DNA of 64,000 bases from Leptolyngbyaceae cyanobacterium (GTDB lineage: Bacteria > Cyanobacteriota > Cyanobacteriia > Cyanobacteriales > Aerosakkonemataceae): NCBI GenBank assembly GCA_036703985.1, contig DATNQN010000051.1, forward strand, positions 1 through 64,000, read 5' to 3'. Shown piece after piece: positions 6,826-34,133 of this stretch (the stretch's first letter is position 1; the number at the start of each line of letters is the position of its first letter). Below the pieces are notes generated by a model, which was not told the DNA's origin, made no database searches, and saw only the letters and a program-made list of their open reading frames with translations. Both the position numbers and the translations under genes were made by a program.

Positions 6826-9081
6826 TTACATCCTTTGATAAGCCTTATAAACTTTTGTCTTATAACCTTTAACACCGTTAGCAACTAAACCCAAAACATT
6901 TACACCTGAAATAGTTAATCTTTCCAGTGATTTGAACACCATAAAACGGTCTGTCTTTTCTAACCCTACAACCATTACTAATCCATCTGTGTAAGCAGCT
7001 ACCAAATTAGCATCTGCCAGCCCTACTAATGGTGGGGTATCATAAATAACTAAATCAAAAAATGCTTGGAACTGCTCCATTAAATGCTGCATTTTCTCAG
7101 AGGAAAGGTGCTTAATTGGATCTGGGGGCGTTGAACCAGCAGTAAGGACAAAAAGATTTTCCTCTGTGGGCGATCGCTGGATAACTTCGTTAAGACCTAC
7201 ATCTGTAGAAATAACCTCACTTAATCCTCTTACATTTGGTAAACCAACCTTTGTATGAATTTTAGGACGACGAAGATCGGCATCTACTAGTAATACCCGT
7301 TGGCCTATAGCAGCAGCTGTTTGAGCTAAATAAACAGCAACACTGGACTTACCATCGCCAGGTGTAGCGGAACCAATGGTTAACGATTGGAGGGATTTGT
7401 CAGGACTAATCAAGCGAATATTTGTGTATAAAGAGCGGAATGCTTCTACCACAGGAGAATCAACATACTGCCTCTCTTGACCGACCAAACTGCGGGTTTT
7501 ATTAACTGTCCAACCAGCTACTAAGACCACCGGAGCAAGTTTTTGGCTAAATAGGGTTGAAAAAGAAGCTAAATGCGCCAAAGGAAATCCTTGGCGTCCT
7601 TTAAGTTCTTTAGCAAAAGGAATTACAGCTAGGAGCGGCAAGTTTGTTTCCCCTTCAATATCATCAGGAGTGTGGAAAACATTGTTAATAATTTCAATGA
7701 GAATAGCTACTCCTATGCCCACTACTAAACTCATAATTAGCATTAAAATGTAGGTTCTCCTATCAATTTTTTGCCTTAAAGGTTTGCCATTTTTCCCTCG
7801 TGGTAATTCAGGAGGGCTAATTAGCTGCCAAAGTACTTCCGCTTGAGCAGCATCCACTCGTAATGTGTCTCGCTTCGATACGAGTTGATTTAGTGAAGCA
7901 GTAGCAACCTCTAATTCCCTCTGTAAATCTGTATACTGGCGTGCAGCAGCAGGAAATTGGCTAGCTCTTTGATTTAAAAGGCTTTCTGATTTAGTAATAA
8001 TTTGAGCGCTGTTTTCTAGACCCTGTAATTCTCCCTTAACCTTTTCTAAAACACTTAGAGCTTCTCTAATAGAACGTAGATGCAAAGACTGTTGCTGTTC
8101 TCGTAATTCTTGCATTATATCGCTATCTTCTTGAAGTTCGGAATAAGCTTGTGCCATTTTAGAGTTAAGTTCATGGATCTGTCTTAGTAAAACTCCATAA
8201 GCATCAACATCCTGACTGAGAACAGCAGGTATATTTCCTTGGTCAAATAGAGTTCTAAGCGTGAAATAAAGCGAACGTTTCTGGGCTATCTTTTGTTGAA
8301 TACTTACTTGTTCATTCTCGATTCTAGCAGCTTGTTCTGCTAATGTTTTTCCTACAATTGAGGGGTCTGTCAAATTGTATTGCTTCCGCAGATTTTGTAG
8401 TTGTCCTTGAATAGTATCAACTCTTTGTTGTAAAGATGGAATTTGCTCTTCGATAAAACTAATGCCTCGACGAATACTCGTCTGACGTTCTTCTAGGCTA
8501 TATTTTAGATAACCCTCTGCTATTTTATCCAATACAAACTCTATTTTGTCAGCTTCTTTATCTTGGTAAGTAATTTCAATAATTCTAGTTCCTTCCTTCT
8601 CCTTCATGATACGTTCAATAGTAAGCTTGCCGATTAATGAATTATAATCAACATCAGGATACTTAGCTTTTATTTTTTCAATAATCGGAGCCATTATTTT
8701 AGGACTTTGTAAAACCCTGATTTGAGATTCGTAATCCAAACCAGAATCAGTTTTTGAATTGGTTTCTCCTAATGTTTTAGTGAGAACGGAAAGCAATTTG
8801 TTTTCAGCTATTGTTACTGGTTCTACTAGAAGCTGAAATTTTCCTTGATAAGTTGGCGCACGTCTTGTACTTAAGAAGAGCAAACCACAATTTGTTAATA
8901 AGGCAACAGAAAAAATAACGATAGCTCTTCTACGTGCTGCTGCAAGAAGCTTACTCAACTCCTTAAGTACTTTTTCTTCATCATTCATTTCAGGCTGTGC
9001 GGCGTAACCTTTAGATAAAGATTGCGACTGTTTACCATTACGCTTGATTGAAAAGGAATGATAATTTTGGTTGGTATCCAT
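6826..9081 (-). CDS. Wzc-like polysaccharide co-polymerase / tyrosine autokinase (BY-kinase)
   Basis: Controls chain length and export of exopolysaccharide in the inner membrane. The 751 residues show: a cytosolic start; a membrane segment at about 52-71; a periplasmic Wzz-type region; long coiled coils at about 200-410; a second membrane segment at about 445-465 after the PPELPRG motif; then a cytosolic kinase with Walker A near 570 (ATPGDGKSS), Walker A' VLLVDADLRRP and Walker B VIYDTPP. The C-terminal tyrosine cluster is short, only Y740, Y745 and Y748. It lies 60 bp after the SLBB exporter gene on the same strand, as in wza-wzc operons. Confidence 0.93.
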   Translation of the reverse strand: MDTNQNYHSFSIKRNGKQSQSLSKGYAAQPEMNDEEKVLKELSKLLAAARRRAIVIFSVALLTNCGLLFLSTRRAPTYQGKFQLLVEPVTIAENKLLSVLTKTLGETNSKTDSGLDYESQIRVLQSPKIMAPIIEKIKAKYPDVDYNSLIGKLTIERIMKEKEGTRIIEITYQDKEADKIEFVLDKIAEGYLKYSLEERQTSIRRGISFIEEQIPSLQQRVDTIQGQLQNLRKQYNLTDPSIVGKTLAEQAARIENEQVSIQQKIAQKRSLYFTLRTLFDQGNIPAVLSQDVDAYGVLLRQIHELNSKMAQAYSELQEDSDIMQELREQQQSLHLRSIREALSVLEKVKGELQGLENSAQIITKSESLLNQRASQFPAAARQYTDLQRELEVATASLNQLVSKRDTLRVDAAQAEVLWQLISPPELPRGKNGKPLRQKIDRRTYILMLIMSLVVGIGVAILIEIINNVFHTPDDIEGETNLPLLAVIPFAKELKGRQGFPLAHLASFSTLFSQKLAPVVLVAGWTVNKTRSLVGQERQYVDSPVVEAFRSLYTNIRLISPDKSLQSLTIGSATPGDGKSSVAVYLAQTAAAIGQRVLLVDADLRRPKIHTKVGLPNVRGLSEVISTDVGLNEVIQRSPTEENLFVLTAGSTPPDPIKHLSSEKMQHLMEQFQAFFDLVIYDTPPLVGLADANLVAAYTDGLVMVVGLEKTDRFMVFKSLERLTISGVNVLGLVANGVKGYKTKVYKAYQRM

Positions 9082-9141
9082 TTCGATTCCTATATTTTTT
9101 TTGATTCACTTCAAATTAAAAAATTTAAGCTTCGCTCAGAT

Positions 9142-11319
9142 TCATGGGAGTCCTAAAATCTCTAAAATTCTGAAAATAGAGAACAAGCCTCCGCCACCTA
9201 CTACATTTTCCAAAGTGTCTCCCACTCTAGCTAGCCCGGAGCGACCTACTACAATAATGTCATTGTTCTGAAGCAAAGGATTGGTCTGCTCGTTAATCCC
9301 TTGGTTAAAGTCAATAGGTACTGTAAACCTGGAGATTGTACCGTTGAGGTTGAGGCGAATCAGTTCAACACTGCTCCTTTTAGCTCGACTTCTGTTAAAT
9401 CCTCCAGCAGCCAACAAAGCTTGATTCAAGGTTGTATCTGGTCTAACCTCTATTCTTCCTGGTCTTCCAACTTCTCCTACTACACTAACCTGAATAGTAT
9501 TAGGAGAAAGGCTAGATCCAGCTAATTGAGATACTTCTGCTGGCTCGATATCAGCAGCAGTGGGTATAAAAATCGTATCTCCTTCTTCTAGAATTAAATC
9601 TTGACTGAAATCACCAGCTTGCAAGAACTGCCAAAGGTTTACGTTAATAAATTTTTCTACGCCTGTTCTTGTGGGCCGTCTTACTTGGATATTGCGAATA
9701 TCAGCCTGTTGGGTAATCCCGCCAGCTATTTGGATAGCCCGCGATACAGTTGGCAATCCACCAACAGTTCTGCCATCAGTTTTTGTCTCGCCTCCAATAA
9801 GAACGTATGGGCCTGGACGATTAACTTCTCCTGCTACAGCTACCGTGCGAGCTGTGTTCGGATTTACTCCAAAGCTAACAGAAGATAACTGACGTGCTTC
9901 TGCCCGGTTAAAGTTAGAAATAGTAGGAATAAAAACAGTATCTCCCTCTTGCACTATTAGGTCTTGGCTGGTATCGCCTGCCTGCAAGAATTGCCATAAA
10001 TTTACGCTAAAGTTTTGCTGTACTCCTGTTTTAGTAATACGTCGTACTTGAATATTGCGAATATCAGCAGATGCGGTAATTCCGCCAGCTAACTCAATAG
10101 CTCGTGTTACTGATGGCAATCCACCAACAGTTCTACCCTCCGTTTTTGTCTCGCCTCCAATAAGAACGTATGGGCCAGGATTATTGACTTCGCCTATCAC
10201 TGTAACCGTGCGAGGCTTAGTTATATCTGTAGCTAAGCTAAGTGTTGCTAGCTGGTTTGCTTGTAGTAACGTAATGTTCTGAAGAGTCGGAACAAAAATC
10301 GTATCTCCATCTTGCAAAATTAAATCTTGATTGGTGTCCCCTGATTGCAAAAATTGCCAAAGATCCACATAAAATATTTGTTCTGTACCTGCTTTTGTAG
10401 ACCGACGAACCTGAATGCGTCGAAGGTCGGATGCTGATGTAATTCCTCCCGCGACTTGAATAGCCCGTGTTATTGTTGGTCGTCCACCAACATTTCGATC
10501 TGGTATTGTGTTGCCTCCGGTTAAAACATAAGAACCTGCATTAGCAACTTCTCCCAGAACTCTAACTGTCCGGGGTTTTGTTAGGTCTGTCGCTAAGCTG
10601 GTAGTAGCTACGTAGTTTGATTGTGACAGGCTGACATTAGTTGCTGTCGGGACAAAAATCGTATCTCCATCCAGCACATGAATGTCTTGGCTAGGATTAC
10701 CAGTCCGTAAAAATTCTTGTAAATTTAAATTAATGATCCGCTCGGAACCGTATCTTTGTCGTCGGCGTACTTGAACTCGACTTAAATCTGCTGTTTGTGT
10801 AACTCCTTCTGCCTGTTGGATTAGCTGGGTTACAGTTGGGTATCTCATTCCAGGGGTTCTAGTATCTAACACGGGTACTATATAAGAACCAGGACGATTT
10901 ACTTCACCTGAAACTACAATGTTTAAAGCACGAGGTTCGATCAACCTCACTCCAATCCTAGGACGTTTCAGGATTCGACTGTATGCAGTAGTAATTGCTT
11001 GAGTAGCCTCCTCCAGTGTTAAACCCTGAAGAGATAAAGTACCAACGAGGGGCAAAGATAGCACACCGCCTCTTGGAATAGTGTACTCACCACTATATTC
11101 GGGTAACTTCACGTTATCGATGCGGATGCGATCGCCTCCTCCCAAAGTATATGAATTTTCTAATGTTCCAATGCTAGGAGTCGTTCTAGACGGGCTGGCT
11201 CTACGCTGAGTCCGCTGGGCTTGGACCGGAACAGAACCAACAAGCATTATTAATGCCGATAGTACCATCATAATTACAATGGTTTGGCTTATTTTTCCAG
11301 AAATGGAGTTATTTAACAT
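9142..11319 (-). CDS. Wza-like polysaccharide export protein with five SLBB units
   Basis: Periplasmic/outer-membrane export component for exopolysaccharide. The 725 residues start with a signal peptide (about 1-35, ending VQAQ), then the Poly_export domain (GGGDRIRI ... PRIGVRLIEPR). Five SLBB-type units follow, starting GEVNRPGSY, GEVANAGSY, GEVNNPGPY, GEVNRPGPY and GEVGRPGRI. Each of the first four ends in a D(I/L)xVxEGDTxF(V/I)PT-type block. The classical Wza has fewer SLBB units and is about half as long. Two central units are almost identical in DNA over about 60 bp at a 363-bp period. I see no lipobox. Confidence 0.92.
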   Translation of the reverse strand: MLNNSISGKISQTIVIMMVLSALIMLVGSVPVQAQRTQRRASPSRTTPSIGTLENSYTLGGGDRIRIDNVKLPEYSGEYTIPRGGVLSLPLVGTLSLQGLTLEEATQAITTAYSRILKRPRIGVRLIEPRALNIVVSGEVNRPGSYIVPVLDTRTPGMRYPTVTQLIQQAEGVTQTADLSRVQVRRRQRYGSERIINLNLQEFLRTGNPSQDIHVLDGDTIFVPTATNVSLSQSNYVATTSLATDLTKPRTVRVLGEVANAGSYVLTGGNTIPDRNVGGRPTITRAIQVAGGITSASDLRRIQVRRSTKAGTEQIFYVDLWQFLQSGDTNQDLILQDGDTIFVPTLQNITLLQANQLATLSLATDITKPRTVTVIGEVNNPGPYVLIGGETKTEGRTVGGLPSVTRAIELAGGITASADIRNIQVRRITKTGVQQNFSVNLWQFLQAGDTSQDLIVQEGDTVFIPTISNFNRAEARQLSSVSFGVNPNTARTVAVAGEVNRPGPYVLIGGETKTDGRTVGGLPTVSRAIQIAGGITQQADIRNIQVRRPTRTGVEKFINVNLWQFLQAGDFSQDLILEEGDTIFIPTAADIEPAEVSQLAGSSLSPNTIQVSVVGEVGRPGRIEVRPDTTLNQALLAAGGFNRSRAKRSSVELIRLNLNGTISRFTVPIDFNQGINEQTNPLLQNNDIIVVGRSGLARVGDTLENVVGGGGLFSIFRILEILGLP

Positions 11320-11474: not shown

Positions 11475-12713
11475 ATGAAGTTTGATATCAATCGCCACAT
11501 AATGTTGTTTGATGTTGCTGTTGCAGGGCATCATGCAAACTACATAAGGCATTTGACTAAGTATTGGTGCGAACGAGACTTACAAGGATCTTTGTATATT
11601 GTTGTATCGCCAACTTTTATCCATCAACACTCTGATGTTTTAGATATACCTTTATTATACAGACAAAAAAACGTTTTTTTTATTTCTATTTCCCGAAAAG
11701 AAGAGAAGCTTTTTAGTGCTAACAAATCTAGACTTGAACGTTTAATGCGAGCTTTTCAAGAGTGGCAACTAATGTGTAAATATGCCAACTCTTTGACTGC
11801 AACTCACTGCTTAATTATGTATTTCGATATTTTGAAATTACCACTAGCCTTTAGAGCAAAACCTCCTTGCCCTGTCTCAGGAATTTATTTCCAACCTAAA
11901 TTTTATTACAGAGATTTTAAAACCTATTTACCATCTCAAAAAGAATTGATACAGCAGCAGATAGATAAATTTATATTGAGTTGTGTCCTCCAAAATCCTG
12001 AGCTTAATAAATTGTTTTGCCTAGACCCTTTTGCTATAGATAAGATTAATAAATGCAATAGTAATGTAAAAGCAATACACTTACCAGATCCAGTTTTTAT
12101 GATTAACCAACATGAAATTGACTCAGCTAAACAAAAAGAGATTTTAGGGATTCAAGCCGATAGACAAGTATTTATGTTATTTGGTTCTTTAACCAGACGC
12201 AAAGGAATTCAAAAATTACTAGAAGCTGTAACTATGTTACCCCAAGATTTAGGACAAAAACTTTGTTTGGTACTTTTAGGAGTACCTGAACCTATAGAAG
12301 AAAAACCTTTGATAGCATCTTGGCTCGAAAAAATATACCATCTTCAATCATCCCTTCAAATTATAACTAAATATGAATATATTCCCGAAACAGATGTGCA
12401 TAAATATTTTCATATGGCAGATGTTATACTTATACCTTACCAACGGCAAGCTGGAATGAGTGGTATCTTATTATTAGCAGCATCTACCTGTAAACCAGTA
12501 TTAAGTACAAATTATGGTTTGATTGGAGCGCTAGTACAACAATACAATCTTGGCTTAACCGTTGATACAAGCGTGGCAGGCGAAATAGCTAAAGGATTGA
12601 CTGCATTCCTTAGTAAAGCTCCTAGCTCGTTTTGCGATATTAGCCAAATGCAATCTTTTGTACAAAATCACACTCCTGAAAAATTCGCTAGTATAATATT
12701 TGAAAATATCTAA
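11475..12713 (+). CDS. Glycosyltransferase, GT4-like
   Basis: A 412-residue predicted GT-B fold enzyme. The C-terminal half has the usual nucleotide-sugar-binding pattern: FMLFGSLTRRKGIQKLL, LVLLGVPEP, a YIPETDVHKYFHMADVILIPY block, then GMSGILLLAASTCKPVLST. The EX7E catalytic signature of GT4 is not evident at that place. It starts the plus-strand glycosyltransferase run and shares a 155-bp divergent promoter region with the exporter operon. Sugar donor and acceptor are unknown. Confidence 0.75.
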   Translation: MKFDINRHIMLFDVAVAGHHANYIRHLTKYWCERDLQGSLYIVVSPTFIHQHSDVLDIPLLYRQKNVFFISISRKEEKLFSANKSRLERLMRAFQEWQLMCKYANSLTATHCLIMYFDILKLPLAFRAKPPCPVSGIYFQPKFYYRDFKTYLPSQKELIQQQIDKFILSCVLQNPELNKLFCLDPFAIDKINKCNSNVKAIHLPDPVFMINQHEIDSAKQKEILGIQADRQVFMLFGSLTRRKGIQKLLEAVTMLPQDLGQKLCLVLLGVPEPIEEKPLIASWLEKIYHLQSSLQIITKYEYIPETDVHKYFHMADVILIPYQRQAGMSGILLLAASTCKPVLSTNYGLIGALVQQYNLGLTVDTSVAGEIAKGLTAFLSKAPSSFCDISQMQSFVQNHTPEKFASIIFENI

Positions 12714-12872: not shown

Positions 12873-13862
12873 ATGAAGCAATTATTTATAGCATGGATCG
12901 CTTTTCAGCGACGACCTATCTCAATGCAGCCTTACTTTGGCTATCAACTAAAGTTCTTATCGTTGGCGTTTCATAGTCGCTACTTAAGACCTTTAGAATA
13001 CTTCTTTAAAAGCGTTATAACTTTATGGCTGCTACTTTGCGAACAGCCTCAAGTGGTTTGGGTACAACTTGCCCCAACGCCTCCTCTATATTTAGCTTAT
13101 TTATACAAAGTATTGTTTAATAGCCAAGTGGCTATTATTGCTGATTGTCACAATGTTATGTTCCGCTATCCTTGGATAAGCTTTCCAGGAGCGATAGCTT
13201 TGCTCAATCGTTGCGATGTGGTGCTAGTACATAACGATTATGTCAAAGAACAAGTTAAAGCAGCAGGTGTAAACCCTAAAACATTGCTAGTTTTGGAGGA
13301 TCGACCTTCTATAGTAAATTATAATATAGTTGCAAATCTAGATCGATTTGTTTTTTTGCATCCTTGGGTGTTATTTCCATGCTCGTTTAATGCTGACGAA
13401 CCTATAGAAGCTGTTTTGGCAGCGGCTCGTTTAATACCAAAAATTACTTTTGTGCTGACTGGCAATATTACCCGTGCCAAAGGCATTCATAACTTAAAAA
13501 ATATACCTCCCAACGTTAAACTACCTGGATACTTGCCTACAGTAGAATTTGATATCTTATTGCTTTCGACTGATGCTGTTTTAGGTTTAACAGTACTGGA
13601 TGGGGTGCAGTTATGCAGCGCTAATGAGGCTGTAGGAACAGGGAAGCCACTAATTCTATCTCAGACTAGACTTTTACAGAAAATGTTTTATAAAGGTGCA
13701 ATTTACGTCAATCCTCTTAATCCTCAGTCGATCGCCCAAGGCTGCCAAGAAGCAATATCTAGAAAAGAGGAACTAAGTCAGCAAATAAACGAATTGAAAG
13801 CCGAGCGACACAATCAATGGTTAGAGCAAGCCCGTGCAGTGGATGCTATTTTAAATTCTTAA
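12873..13862 (+). CDS. Glycosyltransferase, GT4-like
   Basis: A 329-residue GT-B-like protein. The N-terminal half contains VWVQLAPTPPLYLAYLY and IADCHNVMFRYPW, the pattern of the acceptor-binding domain, then NRCDVVLVHNDYVKEQ, typical of GT4 linker regions. The C-terminal half has ITFVLTGN and VLGLTVLDGVQLCSANEAVGTG, corresponding to the donor-binding loop. It stands in the EPS gene run, 18 bp before the next gene, so the two are probably co-transcribed. Specificity is unknown. Confidence 0.75.
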   Translation: MKQLFIAWIAFQRRPISMQPYFGYQLKFLSLAFHSRYLRPLEYFFKSVITLWLLLCEQPQVVWVQLAPTPPLYLAYLYKVLFNSQVAIIADCHNVMFRYPWISFPGAIALLNRCDVVLVHNDYVKEQVKAAGVNPKTLLVLEDRPSIVNYNIVANLDRFVFLHPWVLFPCSFNADEPIEAVLAAARLIPKITFVLTGNITRAKGIHNLKNIPPNVKLPGYLPTVEFDILLLSTDAVLGLTVLDGVQLCSANEAVGTGKPLILSQTRLLQKMFYKGAIYVNPLNPQSIAQGCQEAISRKEELSQQINELKAERHNQWLEQARAVDAILNS

Positions 13863-13880
13863 CAAGGAGGATATAAATAG

Positions 13881-14759
13881 ATGAAGATAGCTATTTTAAT
13901 GACTTGTCACAATAGGCGCGAGCACACTTTAAATTGTCTGGAGAAAGTTTATCAGCAAAATTTAGCTGTCGATTTATATCTAGTAGATGATGGTAGTACA
14001 GATGGAACTTGGGAGGCCGTAAAAAAACTCTTTCCAATAGTGAAACTGATTAAAGGAAATGGTAATCTATTTTGGGGAGGTGGAATGCAGTTGGCATTTC
14101 TAGAAGCCATGAAATTTGATTATGACTACTACATTTGGCTAAATGATGATATTCAGCTTGTTCCTAATGCGCTGAAAATACTTCTTGATACTCATATCTA
14201 TTTAGCAGAGCGAGGATACCATAAGTCTATAGTAACTGGCTCATTGCAAGACCCAATAACTGGAATGGTAACCTATGGAGGAAGAGTGCGGCTAAAGCCT
14301 TGGCATCCCCTAAAATTTGGGTGGGTAAAGCCTACAGAAAAACCCCTAGAATGCGAGACAATGAATGGAAATTGTGTGCTTATTCCTAATGCAGTGGCTA
14401 AGGAGGTAGGCAATATAGATCCGATTTTTACTCATCGTCGAGGAGACTTCGATTACGGACTAAGAGCGCGTAAACTGGGTTGTTCGATATGGGTAGCACC
14501 TGGGTATGTAGGTACTTGTGCGAGGAATTCTATTAGTGGAACTTATATGGATGTCAACTTATCGCTCAGAGAGCGACTGAAAAAGTTAGACCATCCCAAA
14601 GAGTTATCTTCTAAAGAATGGAAATTATACGTGAAAAGGCATGGTGGCAAATTTTGGTTTTTATTTTGGCTTAATCCTTATGTGAGTTTAATTATTAGTT
14701 CAGTATTGCATAAGATAAAAGTTAAAAAAACAGATAAAGATTCAGGGCAATCAAATTAA
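13881..14759 (+). CDS. Glycosyltransferase family 2
   Basis: A 292-residue GT-A fold enzyme. The start MKIAILMTCHNRREHTL is the nucleotide-sugar entry motif, VDDGSTDGT follows, and the metal-binding DxD-type motif is WLNDDIQL. The C-terminal part holds the RRGDFDYGLRARKLG block seen in rhamnosyltransferase-like GT2 proteins. The ATG has a strong ribosome site (aaggagg, 10 bases upstream). Donor sugar unknown; rhamnose is only one possibility. Confidence 0.87.
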   Translation: MKIAILMTCHNRREHTLNCLEKVYQQNLAVDLYLVDDGSTDGTWEAVKKLFPIVKLIKGNGNLFWGGGMQLAFLEAMKFDYDYYIWLNDDIQLVPNALKILLDTHIYLAERGYHKSIVTGSLQDPITGMVTYGGRVRLKPWHPLKFGWVKPTEKPLECETMNGNCVLIPNAVAKEVGNIDPIFTHRRGDFDYGLRARKLGCSIWVAPGYVGTCARNSISGTYMDVNLSLRERLKKLDHPKELSSKEWKLYVKRHGGKFWFLFWLNPYVSLIISSVLHKIKVKKTDKDSGQSN

Positions 14760-14844: not shown

Positions 14845-15780
14845 ATGAATGAACTTAGCCTTCCTAAAGTATCCGTCATTCTTCCAGTATTCAACGACTC
14901 CCAATGCTTAGAACTTTGTTTGCAAGCTTTGGAAATTCAGACTTACTCAAAAAACTTATACGAAGTCATAGTGGTTGATAATGGTTCTAAAGAGAGCGTA
15001 GAGCCGATAGTTAAGAAATTCAAGCAAGCCCTAATCAGCCATGAAATTTATCCAGGATCTTATGCTGCTAGAAACAAAGGAATTGCTCTGGCTCAAGGAG
15101 AAGTATTAGCTTTTACCGATTCAGATTGTATTCCCATGCCTGATTGGATTGAAAAAGGTATAGCAAAACTGCTTAGTGTTCCTGATTGTGGATTAGTGGC
15201 TGGTAAAATAGAAGTTTTTTTTAAAGAGCCAAATTATCCAACATCGGTTGAACTTTATGATATTCTTTATGCTTTTCCTCAAAAGAAGTATGTGGAAGAG
15301 TATAAGTTTGGTGTTACAGCAAATCTTTTCACGTTTAAAAGCGTTTTAGAAAAAGTTGGGGGATTTAATCAAGCACTTAAATCTGGTGGCGATTATGAAT
15401 GGGGTTGGCGGGTATATTCATCCGGGCTCAAAGTGATTTATGCCGATGATGCTTGCGTGGCTCACCCAGCGAGACGTTCCTTTGACGAACTCTCTAAGAA
15501 AGTAACTAGGGTGATAGGTGGACATTACGAATTAACTAAAAATAAAATATATCCACAGACAAAATTTATTCTAGGTTCTTTAGGCGATTTATTATTGCCG
15601 TTTAGATGTATTCCCTCTGTGATTTTTGATAAAAGAGTGAAAGGAGGCAAACAGAAGTTAAAACTTATTGGTGTTATTGTAAAGATTAGATATATTAAGG
15701 GTTGGACGAAACTTCGTTTACAAATGGCAGGTATTTTAGCATATATTACCAACCATTTAATAGTAAAGCCATCTAAATGA
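14845..15780 (+). CDS. Glycosyltransferase family 2
   Basis: A 311-residue GT-A enzyme with the motifs VSVILPVFNDSQCL, VVDNGSKE, the donor/metal motif FTDSDCIP and the acceptor-side block SGGDYEWGWRVYSSG. The last 60 residues are basic and hydrophobic and could lie on the membrane. It sits between another GT2 gene and a GT4 gene in the EPS run. A direct repeat containing ttaattaa stands just upstream (about 14812-14843). Specificity unknown. Confidence 0.87.
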   Translation: MNELSLPKVSVILPVFNDSQCLELCLQALEIQTYSKNLYEVIVVDNGSKESVEPIVKKFKQALISHEIYPGSYAARNKGIALAQGEVLAFTDSDCIPMPDWIEKGIAKLLSVPDCGLVAGKIEVFFKEPNYPTSVELYDILYAFPQKKYVEEYKFGVTANLFTFKSVLEKVGGFNQALKSGGDYEWGWRVYSSGLKVIYADDACVAHPARRSFDELSKKVTRVIGGHYELTKNKIYPQTKFILGSLGDLLLPFRCIPSVIFDKRVKGGKQKLKLIGVIVKIRYIKGWTKLRLQMAGILAYITNHLIVKPSK

Positions 15781-17046: not shown

Positions 17047-17051
17047 ATATT

Positions 17052-17732: not shown

Positions 17733-17794
17733 TGTTTTTTATCAGTATATCAGGGAATAAATTTACAAGTTATTATATCCTGGATCTAATCTAT

Positions 17795-23124: not shown

Positions 23125-23316
23125 AATACTGCTAATACCACTTCTTTGTAACAATGCGCTTAATACTTACTGTAGGACTACTATATATAGTAAGGATTTT
23201 AGAGCAAATAATTACGAAATATTAAGCACATCTTCATAGAGAATTGGTATAAGTAAATTTTAGCAAGATCATCAAACATATAATTCACAGCCGTCTAATC
23301 AGAAAGGATTTAAGTT

Positions 23317-24378: not shown

Positions 24379-24755
24379 AATTCCCGTCAAAGTCTAGATA
24401 CTATAGTCGGGCAGTGCTATCTACAAAAATGAATAAAACATTTTTTTAATAAATCATGTCAATAAGAGGTAGTTGCTAATAAATATAAACACCATTCATC
24501 AAGCACATAATAAACCGCTTATTTCCTACAATAGGATTTTATGTATCTCCAAATTGCCAATATAATACAATACTTTATTCCGGGCAGTAGGTAGAAGTTT
24601 TTTAATAATCGGGGCAAGGGGAAATTTAAAGCACAGTAACGAAGAAATTAAATCATTTTATTGATTAGCCCCTAACCCTTTCTTATCAAAACTAACTGTT
24701 TTTGATACGGAGAATTATAAAGAGGCAATACGTACTCAAAAAGAGGATAGCCACT
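24379..24755. other. AT-rich intergenic region
   Basis: About 377 bp before the chosen start of the next glycosyltransferase gene. It contains homopolymer runs and no hairpin with a T-tract. I see no gene, and no promoter that I can defend. Confidence 0.35.
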
Positions 24756-25997: not shown

Positions 25998-26098
25998 TCT
26001 TTCAGTCCAGAAAGTTTACACTAAAAAAACTGGATTAATATTACCAAACAAAAGTGTTGAATAAAGCGGAACAAATTTCATAAAGGAGGGTATGTAGT

Positions 26099-27028
26099 GT
26101 GGGTCAGTTATTTGAATATTCACTTGTAAGCGTAATTATCCCAACTTATAATCGTGCCTACTTGATAGCATCTGCCATCGATAGTGCGATTAAACAAACA
26201 TATGAAAATTTAGAGATAATAGTTATTGATGATGCTTCTACTGACAATACAAAGGAAATTGTAACTTCTTTTGATGACCAGCGAATTCGCTATATTATTC
26301 ACCCAACTAACGCTGGTGGAGCAGCAGCCCGGAATACTGGTATTGATGCTGCCAAAGGAAAATATCTAGCCTTTTTAGATTCCGATGACGTTTGGTTACC
26401 CAATAAAATTGAGCTACAGTTAGCTGCGATTCAGAATCACCCTTACCCCGAAAAAGTAGTCAGTTACACTCAATTTAAAAATGATAACGGGCGAGAAGTA
26501 TGTATTATGCCAATTAGGGGGAAGAAAGATACTGAAAATTTGGCTGACTATTTGTTCGTAAATGACGGGCAAATTTTAACAAGCATTCTGATGTTTTCCC
26601 GTTCACTAGCTTTGACTACCAAGTTCAGAACTCAACTTAAAATACACCAGGATTGGGATTTATGTCTAAGGCTTGAAGCACAAGGAGCAATTTTTGAATT
26701 TTTAGAAGAGCCTTTAACCATTTGGTATAACGATCGTCAAAGTGAACGAATATCAAAATCATTAGATTACCAATTATCACTCAACTGGATTCAGGAATAC
26801 CAAAACCTAATTTCCAGTAAAGCAAATAAAGGATTTTTAGTAAAAGAGGTTGTGCCAAAACTGATTAAAAGCGAACAAAGAAAATTATATGCAACTGGAT
26901 TAACTTTAGATGCAGCAATATATCGAATAATATCTCCTTACAAGTTCGCCGTACTAATGGGAAGAATTTTAATATCTAAAAGATGGCGTGTGAAAATAAA
27001 AAGGATGTGGAAAAATAACAGTGGCTAA
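26099..27028 (+). CDS. Glycosyltransferase family 2
   Basis: A 309-residue GT-A enzyme. Motifs are SVIIPTYNRAYLIASAI, VIDDASTDNT, GGAAARNTGIDAAKG and the metal/donor motif FLDSDDVW. HQDWDLCLRLEAQGAIF is the acceptor-side block. The GTG start is supported by the strong ribosome site aaaggagg 9 bases upstream. It follows a GT4 gene at about 100 bp and precedes another GT4 gene by 57 bp. Confidence 0.9.
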   Translation: MGQLFEYSLVSVIIPTYNRAYLIASAIDSAIKQTYENLEIIVIDDASTDNTKEIVTSFDDQRIRYIIHPTNAGGAAARNTGIDAAKGKYLAFLDSDDVWLPNKIELQLAAIQNHPYPEKVVSYTQFKNDNGREVCIMPIRGKKDTENLADYLFVNDGQILTSILMFSRSLALTTKFRTQLKIHQDWDLCLRLEAQGAIFEFLEEPLTIWYNDRQSERISKSLDYQLSLNWIQEYQNLISSKANKGFLVKEVVPKLIKSEQRKLYATGLTLDAAIYRIISPYKFAVLMGRILISKRWRVKIKRMWKNNSG

Positions 27029-27085
27029 AATTATCATCGTCATCAGTTTGTTATTAATTTTGAATAAAACAAAGGTAATTAACTA

Positions 27086-28354
27086 ATGAAGCTTTTAATT
27101 GTTTCTAAGTCCGATATTAAAGGAGGCGCTAGCCGTGCTGCTTATAGGCTTTATCAAGGGTTAAATAGAATCGGAATAAATTCTCAGATGCTAGTGCAGA
27201 ATAAGCTGAGTGATGATCCCTCAGTCCTTAGCCCGAAAACTGAACTAGTGAAGAAGTTAATGGAATTTAGAGAAACTTTTGAAGCGTTGCCCGTAAAAAT
27301 TTATAAGCAGCGTAAAACTAATACTTTTTGGCCTCAGTGGGTTCCCGATCGAATCAAATCAAAAGTTAATCAAATCGCTCCAGATTTGATTAACCTACAT
27401 TGGATTAGTAGGGGGTATATACAAATAGAAACACTAGCAAATTTAAATAAACCTTTAGTATGGACTTTCCATGATATGTGGCCGTTTACAGGAGGATGCC
27501 ATTACAGCCAAGATTGTAATTTATATATGCAATCGTGTGGCAAGTGTCCTCAACTTCAAAGTCAAAATCACTGGGATTTATCTAGATGGGTGTGGCACAG
27601 GAAAGCTAGTGCTTGGGAAAAGCTTAATTTAACAATTGTTACACCTAGCAAATGGCTGGCTAAATGTGCTCAAGAAAGCTCTCTTTTTAAAGATGTTAGG
27701 ATCGAAGTAATTCCCTACGGTCTAGATATTCAGAAATATCAACCAATTGATCGAAACCTAGCAAGACAACTACTAAAGTTACCTCAAGATAAGCAACTAA
27801 TACTTTTTGGTGCTATGAGTGCAACTAGCGATCGTCGCAAAGGATTCCATTTACTTCAACCAGCTTTACAAAGCTTAAGCAAGTCAGGATGGCTCGATCG
27901 AGCAGAACTAGTTGTACTAGGTTCATCTGGGCCAAAAAATGAGGACAACTTAAGTTTTCCATGTCACTATTTAGGCCAACTTAGCGATGATATATCTTTA
28001 GCACTCGTCTATGCAGCAGCAGATGTCTTCGTAGCTCCTTCAGTTGAAGATAATTTGCCCAATACAATTATGGAAGCTCTCGCTTGTGGCACCCCTTGCG
28101 TCGCCTTCTATATCGGCGGAATGCCTGACATGATCGAACACCAGCAGAACGGTTATTTAGCCAAACCTTATCAAGTTGAAGATTTAGCGCAAGGAATTGC
28201 CTGGGTGCTAGAAGATACAGAGCGACATCAAAAACTTTCTCATAACGCTCGTCAGAAAGTAGAACAAGAATTCGCATTGGAAATGCAAGCACATCGTTAC
28301 TTATCTATTTTTACTGACATCTTGCAATTAAATCGTCAGGGACAATTACTCTAA
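27086..28354 (+). CDS. Glycosyltransferase family 4
   Basis: A 422-residue retaining GT-B enzyme. The start KLLIVSKSDIKGGASRAAYRLYQGL is typical of WcaC/WbpX-like proteins, then LINLHWISRGYIQIETL, WTFHDMWPFTGGCHYS, the Cys-rich QSCGKCPQL, VTPSKWLAKCA and the donor block SVEDNLPNTIMEALACGTPCVAF with the EX7E pattern. The CHYSQDC and CGKC cysteines are common in this subfamily. It lies 27 bp before the polymerase gene, probably in one transcript. Confidence 0.9.
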   Translation: MKLLIVSKSDIKGGASRAAYRLYQGLNRIGINSQMLVQNKLSDDPSVLSPKTELVKKLMEFRETFEALPVKIYKQRKTNTFWPQWVPDRIKSKVNQIAPDLINLHWISRGYIQIETLANLNKPLVWTFHDMWPFTGGCHYSQDCNLYMQSCGKCPQLQSQNHWDLSRWVWHRKASAWEKLNLTIVTPSKWLAKCAQESSLFKDVRIEVIPYGLDIQKYQPIDRNLARQLLKLPQDKQLILFGAMSATSDRRKGFHLLQPALQSLSKSGWLDRAELVVLGSSGPKNEDNLSFPCHYLGQLSDDISLALVYAAADVFVAPSVEDNLPNTIMEALACGTPCVAFYIGGMPDMIEHQQNGYLAKPYQVEDLAQGIAWVLEDTERHQKLSHNARQKVEQEFALEMQAHRYLSIFTDILQLNRQGQLL

Positions 28355-28381
28355 ACTCTATAATTTAGATTAATCATCAAA

Positions 28382-29671
28382 ATGGCGAAACCACAAATGG
28401 CTGTTCGTATAAATTATGTAAATCCCTTTTTAAGTTCAATTGTAAGGTTGAGTCTAGCTATTGAAAAGTGGTTTGCAGTTGCATTATATTTTTATTTTAC
28501 AGAGCCTTTTTTAGCCCTTTATGCTAAGGAAGGTTATAAATGGACTGATCGGGTGAGCTTTTACCTTGAAAAATTGTTATTACTAATAGTCATTTGTTTA
28601 CTTTTGGCACGTTGGAAACAATCTCTTCTTATCCTCAGTAAAGGAAAATTGCTCCTATTATTTGTCGGAATTACTATAATATCTACACTCTGGTCAGACT
28701 TTCCAAGTGACACACAAAAACAAGCTATGAGTTTGGCAGAGTCAACTTTATTCGGAGTTTATTTTGCTTCTCGTTATAGCTTTAAAGAGCAGACACGGAT
28801 GATAACGTTAGCCTTTGTAATAGCATCAATATTTAGTATATTATACGTTTTTGGACTACCAAAATTTGGCATCACTCAGGTTGGCGGAAATGCAGGAAAT
28901 TGGCGGGGTATTTTTGTACATAAAAATACATTAGGACGCATGATGGTTATAGCCGGACTGTTTTTTTTGACTACAGCTTTTAGTAACAAAAGAAATTGGA
29001 TGGTGTTGGTATGCCTTGGCATTGCGGTTCAACTGATTTTGGGTACAAACTCAAAATCTGCTTTAGTCAGCTTTATTTTTCTGATTGCTATCTTACCTCT
29101 ATACAGAATTTTTCGATGGAATTCTATCATTTCCATCCCTCTTTATATAATAGTAGTCTTAACAGGTGGGACTGCCGCCCAGATGCTTGCTGACAATTGG
29201 AATGCAGCTTTAGCTTCTATAGATAAAGACCCTAACCTTAATGGACGCATTCCAATTTGGCAAATAGTAATTGAGAGGATTCAAGAGCGTCCTTGGTTGG
29301 GCTATGGCTATGATGGATTCTGGCATGGCTGGGAAGGCAAGTGGTCTGCAAGTCTCTGGCGTACAATTACTTGGCTGCCCGATCAAGCTCATAACGGTTT
29401 TTTAGATGTAGTACTTGAATTGGGTTTAGTAGGAGGAATAATTTTTGCTATTTTATTTGGAAATGCGATTTTCAGATCTGTAGAATGGATTCGCTTAAAT
29501 AGAACATTAGAAACTTTTTGGCCTCTGGCATATATGACATACTACGTACTGATGAATATGACTCAATCCATATTAGTTACACCATACACTTTTGTGTGGT
29601 TAATATTTGTTATGATAAGCCTTACACCAGTAGTTGATATTTATAAAAACAACGAAAAATATGAAAAATAA
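28382..29671 (+). CDS. O-antigen polymerase/ligase-like membrane protein (Wzy/WaaL family)
   Basis: A 429-residue protein with about 10-11 hydrophobic segments and a large periplasmic loop between the later segments. The loop contains GRIPIWQIVIERIQERPWLGYGYDGFW and QAHNGFLDVVLELGLVGG, the hallmark of the PF04932 O-antigen ligase/polymerase family; its HN pair probably belongs to the active site. In a locus with WcaJ, Wzx and Wzc homologues, the polymerase role is more likely than ligase. The last gene of the plus-strand run. Confidence 0.88.
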   Translation: MAKPQMAVRINYVNPFLSSIVRLSLAIEKWFAVALYFYFTEPFLALYAKEGYKWTDRVSFYLEKLLLLIVICLLLARWKQSLLILSKGKLLLLFVGITIISTLWSDFPSDTQKQAMSLAESTLFGVYFASRYSFKEQTRMITLAFVIASIFSILYVFGLPKFGITQVGGNAGNWRGIFVHKNTLGRMMVIAGLFFLTTAFSNKRNWMVLVCLGIAVQLILGTNSKSALVSFIFLIAILPLYRIFRWNSIISIPLYIIVVLTGGTAAQMLADNWNAALASIDKDPNLNGRIPIWQIVIERIQERPWLGYGYDGFWHGWEGKWSASLWRTITWLPDQAHNGFLDVVLELGLVGGIIFAILFGNAIFRSVEWIRLNRTLETFWPLAYMTYYVLMNMTQSILVTPYTFVWLIFVMISLTPVVDIYKNNEKYEK

Positions 29672-29723
29672 ATTATTCGAATACAGCTAGTGTAAACCAA
29701 AAGAATCTAAATATAAATCAAAA

Positions 29724-31307
29724 CTAATTCTCTTTAACCAGTTGCCAAAGTTTCTCTTGATAACTGCCTAATTCTTTGTTTTGCTCAAATTTAAAATTGT
29801 ACTCGTTTTCAAGAATTTTGCGAAATTCATCCGAAGGTTTGTATAAAAATAAATCACTATATTTTTGAGAAATTTTAATTACTCTTGGTTTAACTACTGC
29901 CTGAAGCCTCACTTTCGGGTATAGCAGATAGCTCAAAGACAAAATATAAGCTGGATCGTCATCACTTAATAAAAGAGAGTTTGTACCTTGATTAATAATA
30001 TAGGATGCTTGCAAATTGTATTGAGTTAATTTTGGCCCTTTGTTCCACCAAATTTGTGCTTGAGAGCTAATTAAGCAGGACAAGAATCCACTTACGAACA
30101 ATAATACAGCAGCACATTTCCAAAATTTCTGTTGCTTTAAGTTAACATTAAACGAAAATAATTTATTGGCAAGCAAGTAAGCAACAGCTATCTGAATACC
30201 CAGATAACAGGGAATTAAGTACCGAGCAACTCCCGATCTGCGTCCCCCTATAATTAAATCAGCTAGGATTAAAGTTAAGGCTGTCACTGCTATCAATATG
30301 AAAATAAATAACCACACTTGTTTCAAAGTGTGGCGGTAAATGAAATAAAGTGAATATACTACTAAAATAGACAAAATTAAAATAAAGGGTATTAGGGGAA
30401 TAAAATATGGCAAAGGATCATCAGAGCCAACACCAAAATCAATAAAAAGACGGCTAATATTACCAGCCCACATGGTAGTTAAAGATATAAAGCTAGCTTT
30501 CTGAGACGCCCAGTTTGTACCACCTTGAGTTTTGGAAAAATTACTCATAATAGCTAAAGTCCAAGGTGTCAATGCTAGCAGACCTGCCAGCGATGACAGC
30601 ATAAAGGCTGTTACGATTTTAGTTAATCTAAAGCCTTCTCTAATAAATACATAAATTCCATGCCCTATAGTGACAAACCCAGAAAATAAAAATGAATAAA
30701 GCCCCAGTGTCATACAAACCGCATAAATACCCCAACTAAACTTAGTTTGGAGTCGTATCGCTCGCAGCAAAGCTGCGCTGGATAGTAAAATCGTGACTAT
30801 CCACAAACTATATGGCCGTGCTTCCTGAGCGTATAACAAATGAAATGGCGAAATTGCTATGAGTCCGATTGCCACCCATCCTACCAAAGGCGATTCAAAT
30901 AACTCTCGGCATAGCCAATACATACAAGGAAACGCAAACAAGCTGATAAAGGCAGAAAAGCTTCTAATCGCTGCTACAGAATCACCAAAAAATTGCACCC
31001 AAAATCTTAACACCACAAAATAAAGTGGCGGCAGTTGAGGTTCTTCAACCGCTAAACTCTTAATAGTATCTATTACAGTTTTATCTTGGTTAATACCCTT
31101 GAACTTAGCCAAATATTCAATGTTAATTTCATGGCCATTAAAAGCTTGTTGAACTAACTCTTTTCTCGTGTATCCCGAAATCCTTAAAGAAGTAACAGCT
31201 TCATCTGGCCAATAAATTTTTTTATCTAAATTGAAAAATCTAAAAAATATTCCCAGAAGCAGTAACAGAATAATTAAAAATTTTAACGAATTTTTATAAC
31301 TTTTCAT
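29724..31307 (-). CDS. GT39-like integral-membrane glycosyltransferase (ArnT/PMT superfamily)
   Basis: A 527-residue protein with about 11-12 hydrophobic segments. The first periplasmic loop carries YWPDEAVTSLRISG, holding the catalytic DE pair of the PMT/ArnT superfamily, and EEPQLPPLYFVVLRFW, the second acidic motif. A soluble C-terminal part of about 90 residues follows. Such enzymes use polyprenyl-phosphate sugars as donors on the outside of the inner membrane, so this one may modify the polymer, a lipid or a protein. It is on the opposite strand to the preceding run. Confidence 0.85.
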   Translation of the reverse strand: MKSYKNSLKFLIILLLLLGIFFRFFNLDKKIYWPDEAVTSLRISGYTRKELVQQAFNGHEINIEYLAKFKGINQDKTVIDTIKSLAVEEPQLPPLYFVVLRFWVQFFGDSVAAIRSFSAFISLFAFPCMYWLCRELFESPLVGWVAIGLIAISPFHLLYAQEARPYSLWIVTILLSSAALLRAIRLQTKFSWGIYAVCMTLGLYSFLFSGFVTIGHGIYVFIREGFRLTKIVTAFMLSSLAGLLALTPWTLAIMSNFSKTQGGTNWASQKASFISLTTMWAGNISRLFIDFGVGSDDPLPYFIPLIPFILILSILVVYSLYFIYRHTLKQVWLFIFILIAVTALTLILADLIIGGRRSGVARYLIPCYLGIQIAVAYLLANKLFSFNVNLKQQKFWKCAAVLLFVSGFLSCLISSQAQIWWNKGPKLTQYNLQASYIINQGTNSLLLSDDDPAYILSLSYLLYPKVRLQAVVKPRVIKISQKYSDLFLYKPSDEFRKILENEYNFKFEQNKELGSYQEKLWQLVKEN

Positions 31308-31333
31308 AACTGATTAGCCCTAAAAATTAATAC

Positions 31334-31371
31334 AGAGCCGGAACAATCTCTTTTTAGGAAATTCCGGCTCT
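31334..31371 (-). terminator. Terminator-like hairpin after the PEP-CTERM gene
   Basis: A perfect 10-bp inverted repeat, agagccggaa/ttccggctct, with an 18-base loop in the gap between the PEP-CTERM gene and the GT39-like gene, both on the minus strand. On that strand it is followed by gtattaattttt, a weak T-rich tract. Confidence 0.6.
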
Positions 31372-31422
31372 ATATTTGCTATATTAATTCAATCCTAAGC
31401 CAGGTTGAAAGGGCAAGTTAAA

Positions 31423-32151
31423 CTAACTAATGCTGCGGCGACGAGTCCGAGAAACAGCCAAAGCACCTGCTATTAATCCTAAACCAGCCAATGTAGTTGG
31501 CTCAGGAACTGAAGCTATTCTTGCTTTCGCTGTAATCATCATGTCATTGTAGTCTACATGATCGTCTGCAGTTCCTGGGAGACCGAAATCCTCGAAGCCG
31601 ATCAAGATAGTGTTAGTCAAGGGATTAGTAGAAGCAGAGCTAGGTGTTAGCGCTAATTTGCTGTTGGTGCTGTAAGTAGGAATCCGCCACTTTTGATTGC
31701 TGTTAGGATTAGCAGGATTAATTTTATCGTTTAGTACCCAAGCAGCATCAGCTTCGTTATAAAAGTGGGCATCGTAATCTGAGATGCTTGAGTAAGAACC
31801 ATTACTTAGTTTTCTATCCAGGAAGAAAGAGTAAGTTCCCGCAGCTAACGTTACGCTCTTAGTACAATTAATGACCGCTATACCACAAGTTCCTTGCCAG
31901 TCATTAGCATTGGAGTTATTATCAGACCTCATAACTTCGCCAAGGATGTTAGTTTTTACTCCACCTGGGCCAATCAGTCCAACATTTGACTGGAAATAAC
32001 CGTGAGATTCCTTGAATTCAAAGTCGAAAATGGTTTCCTTATCAAGGGTGAAAGTTTTGCCAAGGTTAAAAGCTTGTGCTGGAGCAGAGACCATACCAAC
32101 TAAAGCAGTGGCGGCAGCGGCGGTAGTGAGTAAGTATTTTTTGAAGTTCAT
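31423..32151 (-). CDS. PEP-CTERM-sorted exported protein with DUF4114-like domain
   Basis: About 242 residues. An N-terminal signal peptide (KKYLLTTAAAATALVGMVSAPAQA) leads a beta-rich domain with the DUF4114-type block DDHVDYNDMMITAKA. It ends with the sorting signal VPEPTTLAGLGLIAGALAVSRTRRRS: PEP motif, membrane helix and basic tail. Such proteins are processed by exosortase, and their genes tend to accompany EPS loci. I choose the ATG at 32151 because agga lies 8 bases upstream; an ATG three codons earlier is too close to it. No exosortase gene is in the window. Confidence 0.9.
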   Translation of the reverse strand: MNFKKYLLTTAAAATALVGMVSAPAQAFNLGKTFTLDKETIFDFEFKESHGYFQSNVGLIGPGGVKTNILGEVMRSDNNSNANDWQGTCGIAVINCTKSVTLAAGTYSFFLDRKLSNGSYSSISDYDAHFYNEADAAWVLNDKINPANPNSNQKWRIPTYSTNSKLALTPSSASTNPLTNTILIGFEDFGLPGTADDHVDYNDMMITAKARIASVPEPTTLAGLGLIAGALAVSRTRRRSIS

Positions 32152-32717
32152 GGTAACCATCCTAAAAGGTAGTGACAGGTATAACTTGGTAAAGATGATT
32201 TTGACTAAGGGAGTGGCCTAGATTACCTACAAGTCGTATTTGGCTTTTTCCGGTGCAACCTAGAAACACTTTTGCTTAGCAAATATATACAAACAAATGG
32301 TTCTTTTTTTACATAACCGGGCAGTTGGCAGTTAACTGGTGGTTTTTTTACATCACAATCAATTAGTAACTGATATAGTACCTTGGTGTCTATAGTTATG
32401 AGCTACCTTTACCTACTCTTTAAAAATCTTCGGCATTTTTGTGAATTATTGGCCTGTGTAACCTGAACGCTGCTTATCAATGGCTGAAAGCATCAGTATT
32501 TCTACGTAATTTAGCCGTAAGAGTTAAAGAAAAGCATATTGTATATATTTCTTTTTCTATCTTAAGAATGAGACGGTTTTTACGGAGTCTTTTTTTTAGC
32601 GACAGCACTAAGAAGAATTTTTACTAAAAAACAAATAAGTTCATGCCTAGTTATAGCCAAAAAATTAATTCTTAGATGAACTATGTTTCCTCTATAAGCT
32701 GAAAAACAAGGATTTCC
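32152..32717. other. Intergenic region between PEP-CTERM and WcaJ-type genes
   Basis: About 566 bp, AT-rich, with several runs of T. No gene, tRNA or convincing terminator was seen. It must contain the promoter of the PEP-CTERM gene. Confidence 0.35.
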
Positions 32718-34133
32718 TTAGTAAGCGCCCTCTTTTCTCAACACAGCCCTAACTGTCTGTAATAAAATTTGAAAGTCTAGGCGAAGAGACCAATTTTGGA
32801 TGTATGTTATGTCCAGTCGGAATACATCCTCGAAATCAACCACGTTAGAACGACCAGAAACTTGCCAAAGACCCGTGATACCTGGTAAAACTTCATGGCG
32901 AATAAAATGATGTTCTGACATTTTTTGTACATCTCGTAAGGGAAATGGGCGAGGCCCTACTAAACTCATTTCACCTACTAAGACATTAATGATTTGCGGT
33001 AGTTCATCAAGACTATAACGGCGTAAAAATTTGCCTACGCTGGTAATCCTGGGGTCGTCTTTCATTTTGAACATGACACCTCCTTTCATTTCATTTTTTG
33101 TTTCTAGTTCTTTTTGCAATTGCTCTGCATTTATTACCATTGTACGGAACTTCCAAACCTTGAATTGCTTGCCTTTCAGACCAATACGACTTTGCTTATA
33201 AAATATAGGACCGGGAGAATTTATTTTTATTAATAGTGCTATCAATAAAAACAGAGGGCTTGCTAGAATCAACACTAATAGAGCCACTAAAATATCAACA
33301 AAACGTTTAGTCCAAAAATCGCTACCAAGTATGGGAGGAGAGCGGAATCTAATTGTAGTTAACCCATCAATCATCTTTATTTCTGACCATTGACTGGGGA
33401 TCTTTAAACCTATAGGTAAAACTCGAAGGCTGATCCCAGAACTCATCAATTCCCAATAAAGAAAAATAGGCGCTCTAACAGCTTCCCAAGAACAAACAAA
33501 AACTTCGCTAACTTTAAGTTGGCGAACATCTGCCAGAATTTCATTCCAACTTTCTTGATTTGTTTCACATGGTAAAACTGATTGTCCTCTAATATCAAAT
33601 CTAGCTGTTTTATCAAGTAATTTACGAGCTTCTTCAATATCTCTTGGGTCGCCCAACAAAAAAATTCTCTGCCGGATTGCACCTTGACGACGGAGGTTTA
33701 CAATGGCTAACTGAATCAATAGTCTTTCTGTACAAACTAAAATTAATAATAGGAGCCAAGCTAACAAAAAAGTTGACCGAGAAACGATCAGCCCCGGCTT
33801 GTAAAGAAACGCGATAATTACCAAAATAAACTGAGCTAAAGTCAGGGATTTGATCATATTTAAGTAATCCCTTCGTTTATCATCAGTGCCGTAGTGTCCA
33901 GAAGCCGCTAAAATACCGATGGTAATCGCTAAAATAGGTAGCAAAAATCCTGGTTGTTCCGGAGACTTCCAAAAAAGCTCGAAATCATCAACCGGTTTTC
34001 CCCAAGAATCAGCAAAAATCCACGCTGAACATGACATAAGGCTGTCTAGCACGACTAAGGTAACGACCCTAAGCCAGCCGACACCTGTCCCTTGGCGAAG
34101 TCTAGTAATAATAGGGGCGCGTAGATCGGGCAT
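32718..34133 (-). CDS. WcaJ-type exopolysaccharide priming glycosylphosphotransferase
   Basis: Starts EPS repeat-unit synthesis by transferring a hexose-1-phosphate to undecaprenyl phosphate at the inner membrane. About 471 residues from the ATG at 34133; a TTG 33 bases earlier is possible. The N-terminal half has about four membrane segments, then a CoA-binding-like Rossmann region (RQRIFLLGDPRDIEEARKL). A fifth hydrophobic helix (LVALLVLILASPLFLLIALLI) leads the catalytic part, with FKVWKFRTM, SLDELPQIINVLVGEMSLVGPRP and GITGLWQVSGRS. This is the full PF02397 signature. Confidence 0.95.
   Translation of the reverse strand: MPDLRAPIITRLRQGTGVGWLRVVTLVVLDSLMSCSAWIFADSWGKPVDDFELFWKSPEQPGFLLPILAITIGILAASGHYGTDDKRRDYLNMIKSLTLAQFILVIIAFLYKPGLIVSRSTFLLAWLLLLILVCTERLLIQLAIVNLRRQGAIRQRIFLLGDPRDIEEARKLLDKTARFDIRGQSVLPCETNQESWNEILADVRQLKVSEVFVCSWEAVRAPIFLYWELMSSGISLRVLPIGLKIPSQWSEIKMIDGLTTIRFRSPPILGSDFWTKRFVDILVALLVLILASPLFLLIALLIKINSPGPIFYKQSRIGLKGKQFKVWKFRTMVINAEQLQKELETKNEMKGGVMFKMKDDPRITSVGKFLRRYSLDELPQIINVLVGEMSLVGPRPFPLRDVQKMSEHHFIRHEVLPGITGLWQVSGRSNVVDFEDVFRLDITYIQNWSLRLDFQILLQTVRAVLRKEGAY

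Follow-up and report, generated by a model that had tools for sequence, protein, structure and literature searches.

The window analysed here is a 64-kb stretch of DNA (contig C51) from a Leptolyngbyaceae cyanobacterium with a genome of 7.68 Mb, and it contains an exopolysaccharide (EPS) locus of the Wzx/Wzy type at nt 6826–34166. This is probably a Wzx/Wzy-dependent locus of the cyanobacterial sulfated-EPS kind, in which the lipid-linked unit would undergo both sulfation and pyruvylation, and these genes give good grounds for predicting a polymer with both groups. Genes were assigned by Pfam cut-offs, supplemented by NCBIfam, which contributed the tyrosine-autokinase and EPS_sugtrans assignments, and the locus holds all of the main parts of a Wzx/Wzy pathway: a priming transferase, Wzx flippase, Wzy polymerase, polysaccharide co-polymerase (PCP) of class 2a and outer-membrane polysaccharide exporter (OPX). 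A sulfotransferase (ST) lies within this polysaccharide cluster, as in the cyanobacterial sulfated-EPS kind, and is followed by Wzx and by a predicted polysaccharide pyruvyl transferase (PPT). An earlier examination without database searches (the sequence-only reading) had described a 27-kb block of this kind; its named genes all lie where it placed them, with Pfam scores above cut-off.

The co-polymerase, a Wzc-like PCP-2a with a bacterial tyrosine (BY) kinase domain (nt 6826–9081, − strand), scores above the AAA_31 and TIGR01007 cut-offs and under that of Wzz, has a Tyr-containing C-terminal tail, and is 50% identical to its reciprocal best hit in G130, a genome of the same order in which the related locus lies on contig C168. 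The OPX gene (nt 9142–11319, − strand) encodes Poly_export and repeated SLBB domains by Pfam, and its reciprocal best hit in G130 also adjoins the PCP gene. Wzx (nt 21589–23124, + strand; Polysacc_synt_3, 304.1 bits) and Wzy (nt 28382–29671, + strand; Wzy_C, 60 bits; reciprocal best hit in G130) are likewise clear, so that the flippase, polymerase, SLBB exporter and BY-kinase of the earlier description are all borne out. The priming polyprenyl glycosylphosphotransferase (nt 32718–34166, − strand; Bac_transf, 236.3 bits) shares 51% identity with XssP across 192 aa. It had been called WcaJ type; it passes TIGR03025 but fails the NCBIfam WcaJ equivalog cut-off (328.4 against 410.75 bits), and its sugar is therefore not assignable.

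In the proposed pathway, the priming transferase would load a sugar phosphate onto undecaprenyl phosphate and glycosyltransferases would assemble the oligosaccharide at the cytoplasmic face. On the still lipid-linked unit, the ST would add sulfate from 3'-phosphoadenosine 5'-phosphosulfate (PAPS) and the PPT a pyruvate ketal from phosphoenolpyruvate (PEP), after which Wzx would flip the unit, Wzy would polymerise it, and the BY-kinase PCP and SLBB OPX would export the polymer. Decoration at the cytoplasmic face before flipping fits because PAPS and PEP are the donors and because CsaB and WcfO are described as pyruvylating lipid-linked precursors (PMC6801904). The sequence-only reading had suggested decoration before export from the consecutive sulfotransferase, flippase and pyruvyl transferase genes (starting at nt 20540, 21589 and 23317, all + strand). 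The genes are indeed consecutive and the timing agrees with the donors and the precursor literature, but gene order alone gives no timing. The pathway draws directly on gene content, family membership, conserved PEP residues, a fold match and a gene order common to other genomes; from these we infer the acceptor sugars, the order of the steps, the presence of both groups on one polymer and any addition of fucose by the family 10 glycosyltransferase (GT10).

The sulfotransferase (nt 20540–21481, + strand; Sulfotransfer_3 and Sulfotransfer_1 above cut-off), presumably PAPS-dependent, matches PDB entry 3rnl with an E-value of 1.3e-65. It carries GAPKAGT at position 10 and RHPVDRAYS at 126, which we take to be the PAPS-binding motifs. 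As regards donor supply, the same genome has apsK as an intact 176-aa frame. ST matches occur in 143 of the 195 genomes of the order.

The PPT (nt 23317–24378, + strand; PS_pyruv_trans, 80.3 bits) is, from sequence and structural model together, a convincing candidate ketal-pyruvyltransferase resembling Pvg1p of Schizosaccharomyces pombe. A profile built from four PPT relatives matched a single PDB sequence at E ≤ 0.001, that of Pvg1p (E 5.3e-19), and only one further PDB sequence (E 0.042) when the limit was raised to E 10. The AlphaFold model of the PPT (pLDDT 94.2) gave Pvg1p (5ax7) as the best Foldseek match in the PDB (E 1.4e-15; TM 0.64/0.68; 20% identity). Residues R168, R274, H276 and K297 align with R217, R337, H339 and K361 of Pvg1p (the PEP-binding Arg, Arg-X-His and Lys), while N52 and D55 align with its active-site, acceptor residues N103 and D106; the register was counted by hand on the PPT–Pvg1p alignment, with a constant offset of 53. 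All six residues are invariant in 24 sequences. The CsaB counterparts R148, R306, H308 and K328 are given as PEP sites in PMC10435577. Assignment of the PPT to CsaB itself was rejected (TIGR03609, 37 bits against a cut-off of 213.1). PPT matches (E ≤ 0.001) were found in 29 of the 195 genomes of the order, and long, close ones in four only: the window's own genome and others at 66%, 63% and 45%. A scan of 84,980 species recovered at least 27 PPT-type loci, in cyanobacteria, Bacillota, Pseudomonadota and others; this is a lower bound because the scan was built on two short peptide patterns, and several of the loci are short contigs.

The arrangement around Wzx recurs, in parts, in other genomes. 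On one contig of G130, reciprocal best hits were obtained for eleven window proteins, and the order ST, Wzx, GT4d, GT2c, GT4e, Wzy is kept there at 49–64% identity, with a divergent PCP and OPX and an additional open frame separating GT2c from GT4e. Of these, GT4d (nt 24702–25997, + strand; reciprocal best hits) is a GT4-like glycosyltransferase that also lies downstream of the PPT in Hyella and Acaryochloris; GT2c (nt 26099–27028, + strand; reciprocal best hit in G130) and the GT4-like GT4e (nt 27086–28354, + strand; 64% identical in G130) follow it, all three assigned by Pfam. Wzx and GT4d are only 206 bp apart in G130, so the PPT is missing there, and no PF04230 (the wider family of the PPT), GT10 or GH10 profile match was found on that contig. 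The order in Hyella is Wzx, PPT, GT4d, GT2c, and in two Acaryochloris loci (L117, L119) it is PCP, Wzx, PPT, GT4d, by reciprocal hits and with other sequence between some of the genes; a third (L118) has a like order by profile only. No sulfotransferase was found within the flanks of the Wzx–PPT–GT4 loci of Hyella patelloides and Acaryochloris, nor on the entire 56.7-kb Hyella contig.

The window thus joins the ST–Wzx order of G130 and the Wzx–PPT–GT4d order of Hyella and Acaryochloris, and the interval that separates the Wzx and GT4d genes resembles a variable slot, filled by a PPT in some genomes. The comparison points to this slot as a place where polymer charge may be set, and it suggests which sugar might be pyruvylated, namely the one added by GT4d. 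A bolder and rather doubtful extension is that the locus is a natural hybrid, in which a Wzx–PPT–GT4d module and an ST–Wzx...Wzy module share one flippase, the repeat unit bears both sulfate and a pyruvate ketal, the PPT acts on the sugar added by GT4d, and gain or loss of the single gene switches polymer charge between species.

A deoxyhexose had also been proposed for the polymer, from a GT10 (alpha-1,3-fucosyltransferase-like) gene at nt 19127–20080 (− strand). Sulfation and pyruvylation remain the best reading of the locus. Transfer of fucose by this protein is plausible, on its sequence and model. The Glyco_transf_10 match (63.7 bits) covers residues 167–274 only, but the closest PDB matches are fucosyltransferases both by sequence (Helicobacter pylori FucT, E 5.5e-13) and by fold (all nine best matches of a model with pLDDT 83.3), albeit at modest TM-scores of 0.41–0.54. 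A FEN...TEK motif lies in the C-terminal domain, and E211, N212, E221 and K222 are invariant in 12 sequences. The gene gmd is present in the genome, which does no more than make GDP-fucose-dependent transfer possible. Against this, the GT10 gene stands isolated on the opposite strand, has the lowest GC in the locus (0.307) and has no counterpart on the G130 contig among reciprocal or profile matches. There is accordingly an appreciable, though lesser, chance that the protein moves a sugar other than fucose or serves another pathway, and adds no deoxyhexose here; the narrow Pfam coverage and modest fold scores favour this view, while the fucosyltransferase matches and gmd speak against it. The label of fucosyltransferase-like decoration enzyme stands as to the likeness, but the protein is a glycosyltransferase, encoded alone on its strand. 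GT10 matches occur in 81 of the 195 genomes, and the majority cover just a short part of the C-terminal half; nine genomes other than the window's have matches of 45–60% over most of the length, in 11 places. Relatives in other cyanobacteria (L229, L230, L231, L232, L236) are longer frames of 467–813 aa, apparently with fused domains.

The co-occurrence of these families was surveyed in 81 ST loci among the matches listed (80 from other genomes and L067, the second ST locus of the window's genome), with flanks of up to 10 kb, some of which were ended by the contig. PF04230 was present in one of these (L086) and GT10 in three (L090, L094, L195). Starting from the other side, sulfotransferases were found in three of 66 PF04230 loci (63 distinct; L067 left out), namely L202, L203 and L205, and in none of the 27 peptide-pattern PPT loci, which are a subset of the 66. 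L202 and L203 are homologous loci from one genus and so count once; no ST was found in L204, of the same genus. Pfam confirms PF04230 in L086, L203 and L205, GT10 in L090 and L195, and the sulfotransferases of L203 and L205, that of L205 being under the profile cut-off. In L202 the co-location relies on family search and ST matches, its sulfotransferases being partly in pieces, and the L086 sulfotransferase relies on the ST similarity search and profiles. Because the initial PF04230 profile detected distant members poorly (6 of 20 known, at 14–30 bits), the ST loci were scanned again using four cluster profiles made from 53 seeds. The sole PF04230 match of the rescan (L086) and two of its three GT10 matches (L090, L195) were themselves seeds, and window-based profiles had already picked up all four matches. 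A set of 20 loci was chosen rather than random, with L202 and L203 taken for close ST/PF04230 places, L204 for belonging to their genus, and L205 and L206 as Hyella.

A further pair was found on the Gloeothece verrucosa plasmid Cy782202 (L225), where a PPT relative (43%) lies about 7.5 kb from an annotated 'sulfotransferase family protein', with unrelated-looking genes between. The suggestion that the combination may be new therefore fails for sulfate plus pyruvate, both being represented in L086, L202, L203, L205, the Gloeothece plasmid and Cobetia (see below). The triple of ST, PF04230 and GT10 went unseen, in scanned loci that are part of what exists and with counts limited by profile sensitivity. 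Among open-licence full texts, and by the exact words used, no cyanobacterial paper was found that names both enzymes, sulfotransferase and pyruvyl transferase, for a single locus. L086 is an ABC-transporter-like locus, in which the sulfotransferase adjoins a divergent PF04230 protein. The PPT relative of L225 has an extra C-terminal part and adjoins ABC transporter genes, and the plasmid is typed as conjugative.

Several observations weigh against a single sulfated and pyruvylated product. Elsewhere, an ST gene and a PPT-type gene seldom share a locus, and joining them to one product rests mainly on their clustering in the window. The ST shares only 24% identity with XssA, and no XssE match was found at E 0.001. 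The genome holds two more OPX genes (three in all) and five further PF13469 matches above cut-off, so that parts of the locus could serve other polymers. Changes of strand at nt 11475, 17052, 17732, 19127, 20540 and 29724, together with the gaps, weaken the case for co-expression of the locus genes. A single operon was rejected on account of these switches, and a scan of nt 17000–30000 gave it no support, with no excess of promoter-like (44 against a shuffle mean of 44.3) or terminator-like sites (7 against 8.1).

These points leave room for an unlikely alternative in which there are two polymers, and the ST and/or the PPT decorate other products (another EPS or a lipopolysaccharide chain) and came to lie next to Wzx by chance or through gene traffic. 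The spare OPX and sulfotransferase genes would suit it, as would the patchy occurrence of the PPT, with no match in the nine other genomes searched from the window's family (though PF04230 of other kinds is nearly universal, in 190 of the 195 genomes of the order), and the GC extremes of the locus, in which Wzx is highest (0.447). It accords poorly with the conserved orders, since G130 retains the ST next to Wzx and both Hyella and Acaryochloris retain the order Wzx, PPT, GT4d, and with the strand layout, in which the longest one-strand run extends from ST through Wzy (ST–Wzx–PPT–GT4–GT2–GT4–Wzy, nt 20540–29671, gaps of 27–323 bp). It is most improbable that the PF04230 protein is instead a glycosyltransferase-like enzyme of the same fold, leaving the polymer sulfated and not pyruvylated: Foldseek also returns many GT-B enzymes for the model and most PF04230 proteins are, to our knowledge, untested, but those GT-B scores are weaker, Pvg1p leads by sequence as well as fold, and the six aligned PEP and active-site residues do not vary.

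The reading of one sulfated and pyruvylated EPS has precedents. According to PMC6888056, sulfated sugars, uronic acids, ketal-linked pyruvyl groups and deoxysugars occur in combination in cyanobacterial EPS. From xss mutants, the xss cluster is reported to make the sulfated EPS synechan, with rhamnose, mannose, galactose, glucose and sulfate near 1:1:1:5:2, and the same account places cyanobacterial sulfotransferase genes mostly in polysaccharide clusters (PMC8205485). Like the window, xss (Synechocystis PCC 6803, pSYSM) is of the Wzx/Wzy type and is not one operon, and its genes likewise cover sulfotransferase, flippase, polymerase, PCP and priming transferase functions plus some eight glycosyltransferases; the window PCP is 27% identical to XssK. 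Unlike the window, xss encodes a pair of sulfotransferases along with regulators of its own, and its annotation is without OPX, pyruvyl transferase, GT10 or GH10. A regulator of the XssQ type was not found at the locus, a 38% XssQ homologue lying on contig C4; no search was made for XssR or XssS, and linked Xss regulators were not taken as defining the wider sulfated-EPS kind. In Cobetia, capsule clusters are described with sulfotransferase and pyruvyltransferase both in region 1 (PMC11766843), and the O-polysaccharide of C. pacifica KMM 3878 with sulfated and pyruvylated galactose (PMC6801904), but this capsule route is dependent on an ABC (ATP-binding cassette) transporter and is not cyanobacterial. 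A Wzx/Wzy cluster of Actinoplanes is reported with two predicted sulfotransferases and a GH26 (PMC13390465). The machinery and both decorations are thus already known in bacteria, and the locus is ordinary but unusually well-stocked: genes for an OPX, PCP, Wzx, Wzy and priming enzyme of its own all lie together, in contrast to most cyanobacterial clusters with a sulfotransferase, which are described as incomplete (PMC8205485). No general idea is altered, but the findings can guide the selection of loci for the production of sulfated or pyruvylated polymers.

The remaining glycosyltransferase genes form a block on the + strand: a GT4-like gene (nt 11475–12713; Glycos_transf_1), a probable GT4-like gene (nt 12873–13862; Glycos_transf_1 at 18.2 bits, under the cut-off of 26.4), two GT2 genes (nt 13881–14759, with a reciprocal best hit in G130, and nt 14845–15780) and another GT4-like gene (nt 15850–17046), the last three by Pfam. 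With those downstream of the PPT, there are three GT2 and five GT4-like genes (one under cut-off). The nine glycosyltransferases previously counted are reached if GT10 is added to these eight, but a PMT_2 membrane glycosyltransferase (nt 29724–31307, − strand; 28.5 bits, cut-off 26.1) makes a tenth. The earlier gene list also omitted an S-adenosylmethionine-dependent methyltransferase (nt 17052–17732, − strand; Methyltransf_11, 27.8 bits, cut-off 21.2; 41% reciprocal best hit in G130), a GH10 glycoside hydrolase, and a PEP-CTERM protein (nt 31423–32160, − strand; TIGR02595 above cut-off, Pfam PEP-CTERM just under). Pathway membership of the PMT_2 and PEP-CTERM proteins is uncertain; their genes (nt 29724–32160) separate Wzy from the priming transferase, and a weak PEP-CTERM relative (31%) lies near the PCP gene in G130.

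The GH10 protein (nt 17732–18967, + strand; Glyco_hydro_10, 268.8 bits) contains WDVINE, ITEMD and RRAFL, read here as presumed GH10 and export motifs; the N-terminal RR motif, found as RRAFL, suggests twin-arginine (Tat) export. GH10 was also present in six of the 81 ST loci (L085, L087, L088, L089, L091, L144), all with a Wzy profile match and five of them from one family (f18). That GH10 trims or releases sulfated EPS is a lead. A short frame with a transposase DDE domain (nt 6163–6564) abuts the left end of the locus, and further along the window one protein (nt 47345–49102) joins a protein kinase domain to an FGE-sulfatase (sulfatase-modifying factor-like) domain.

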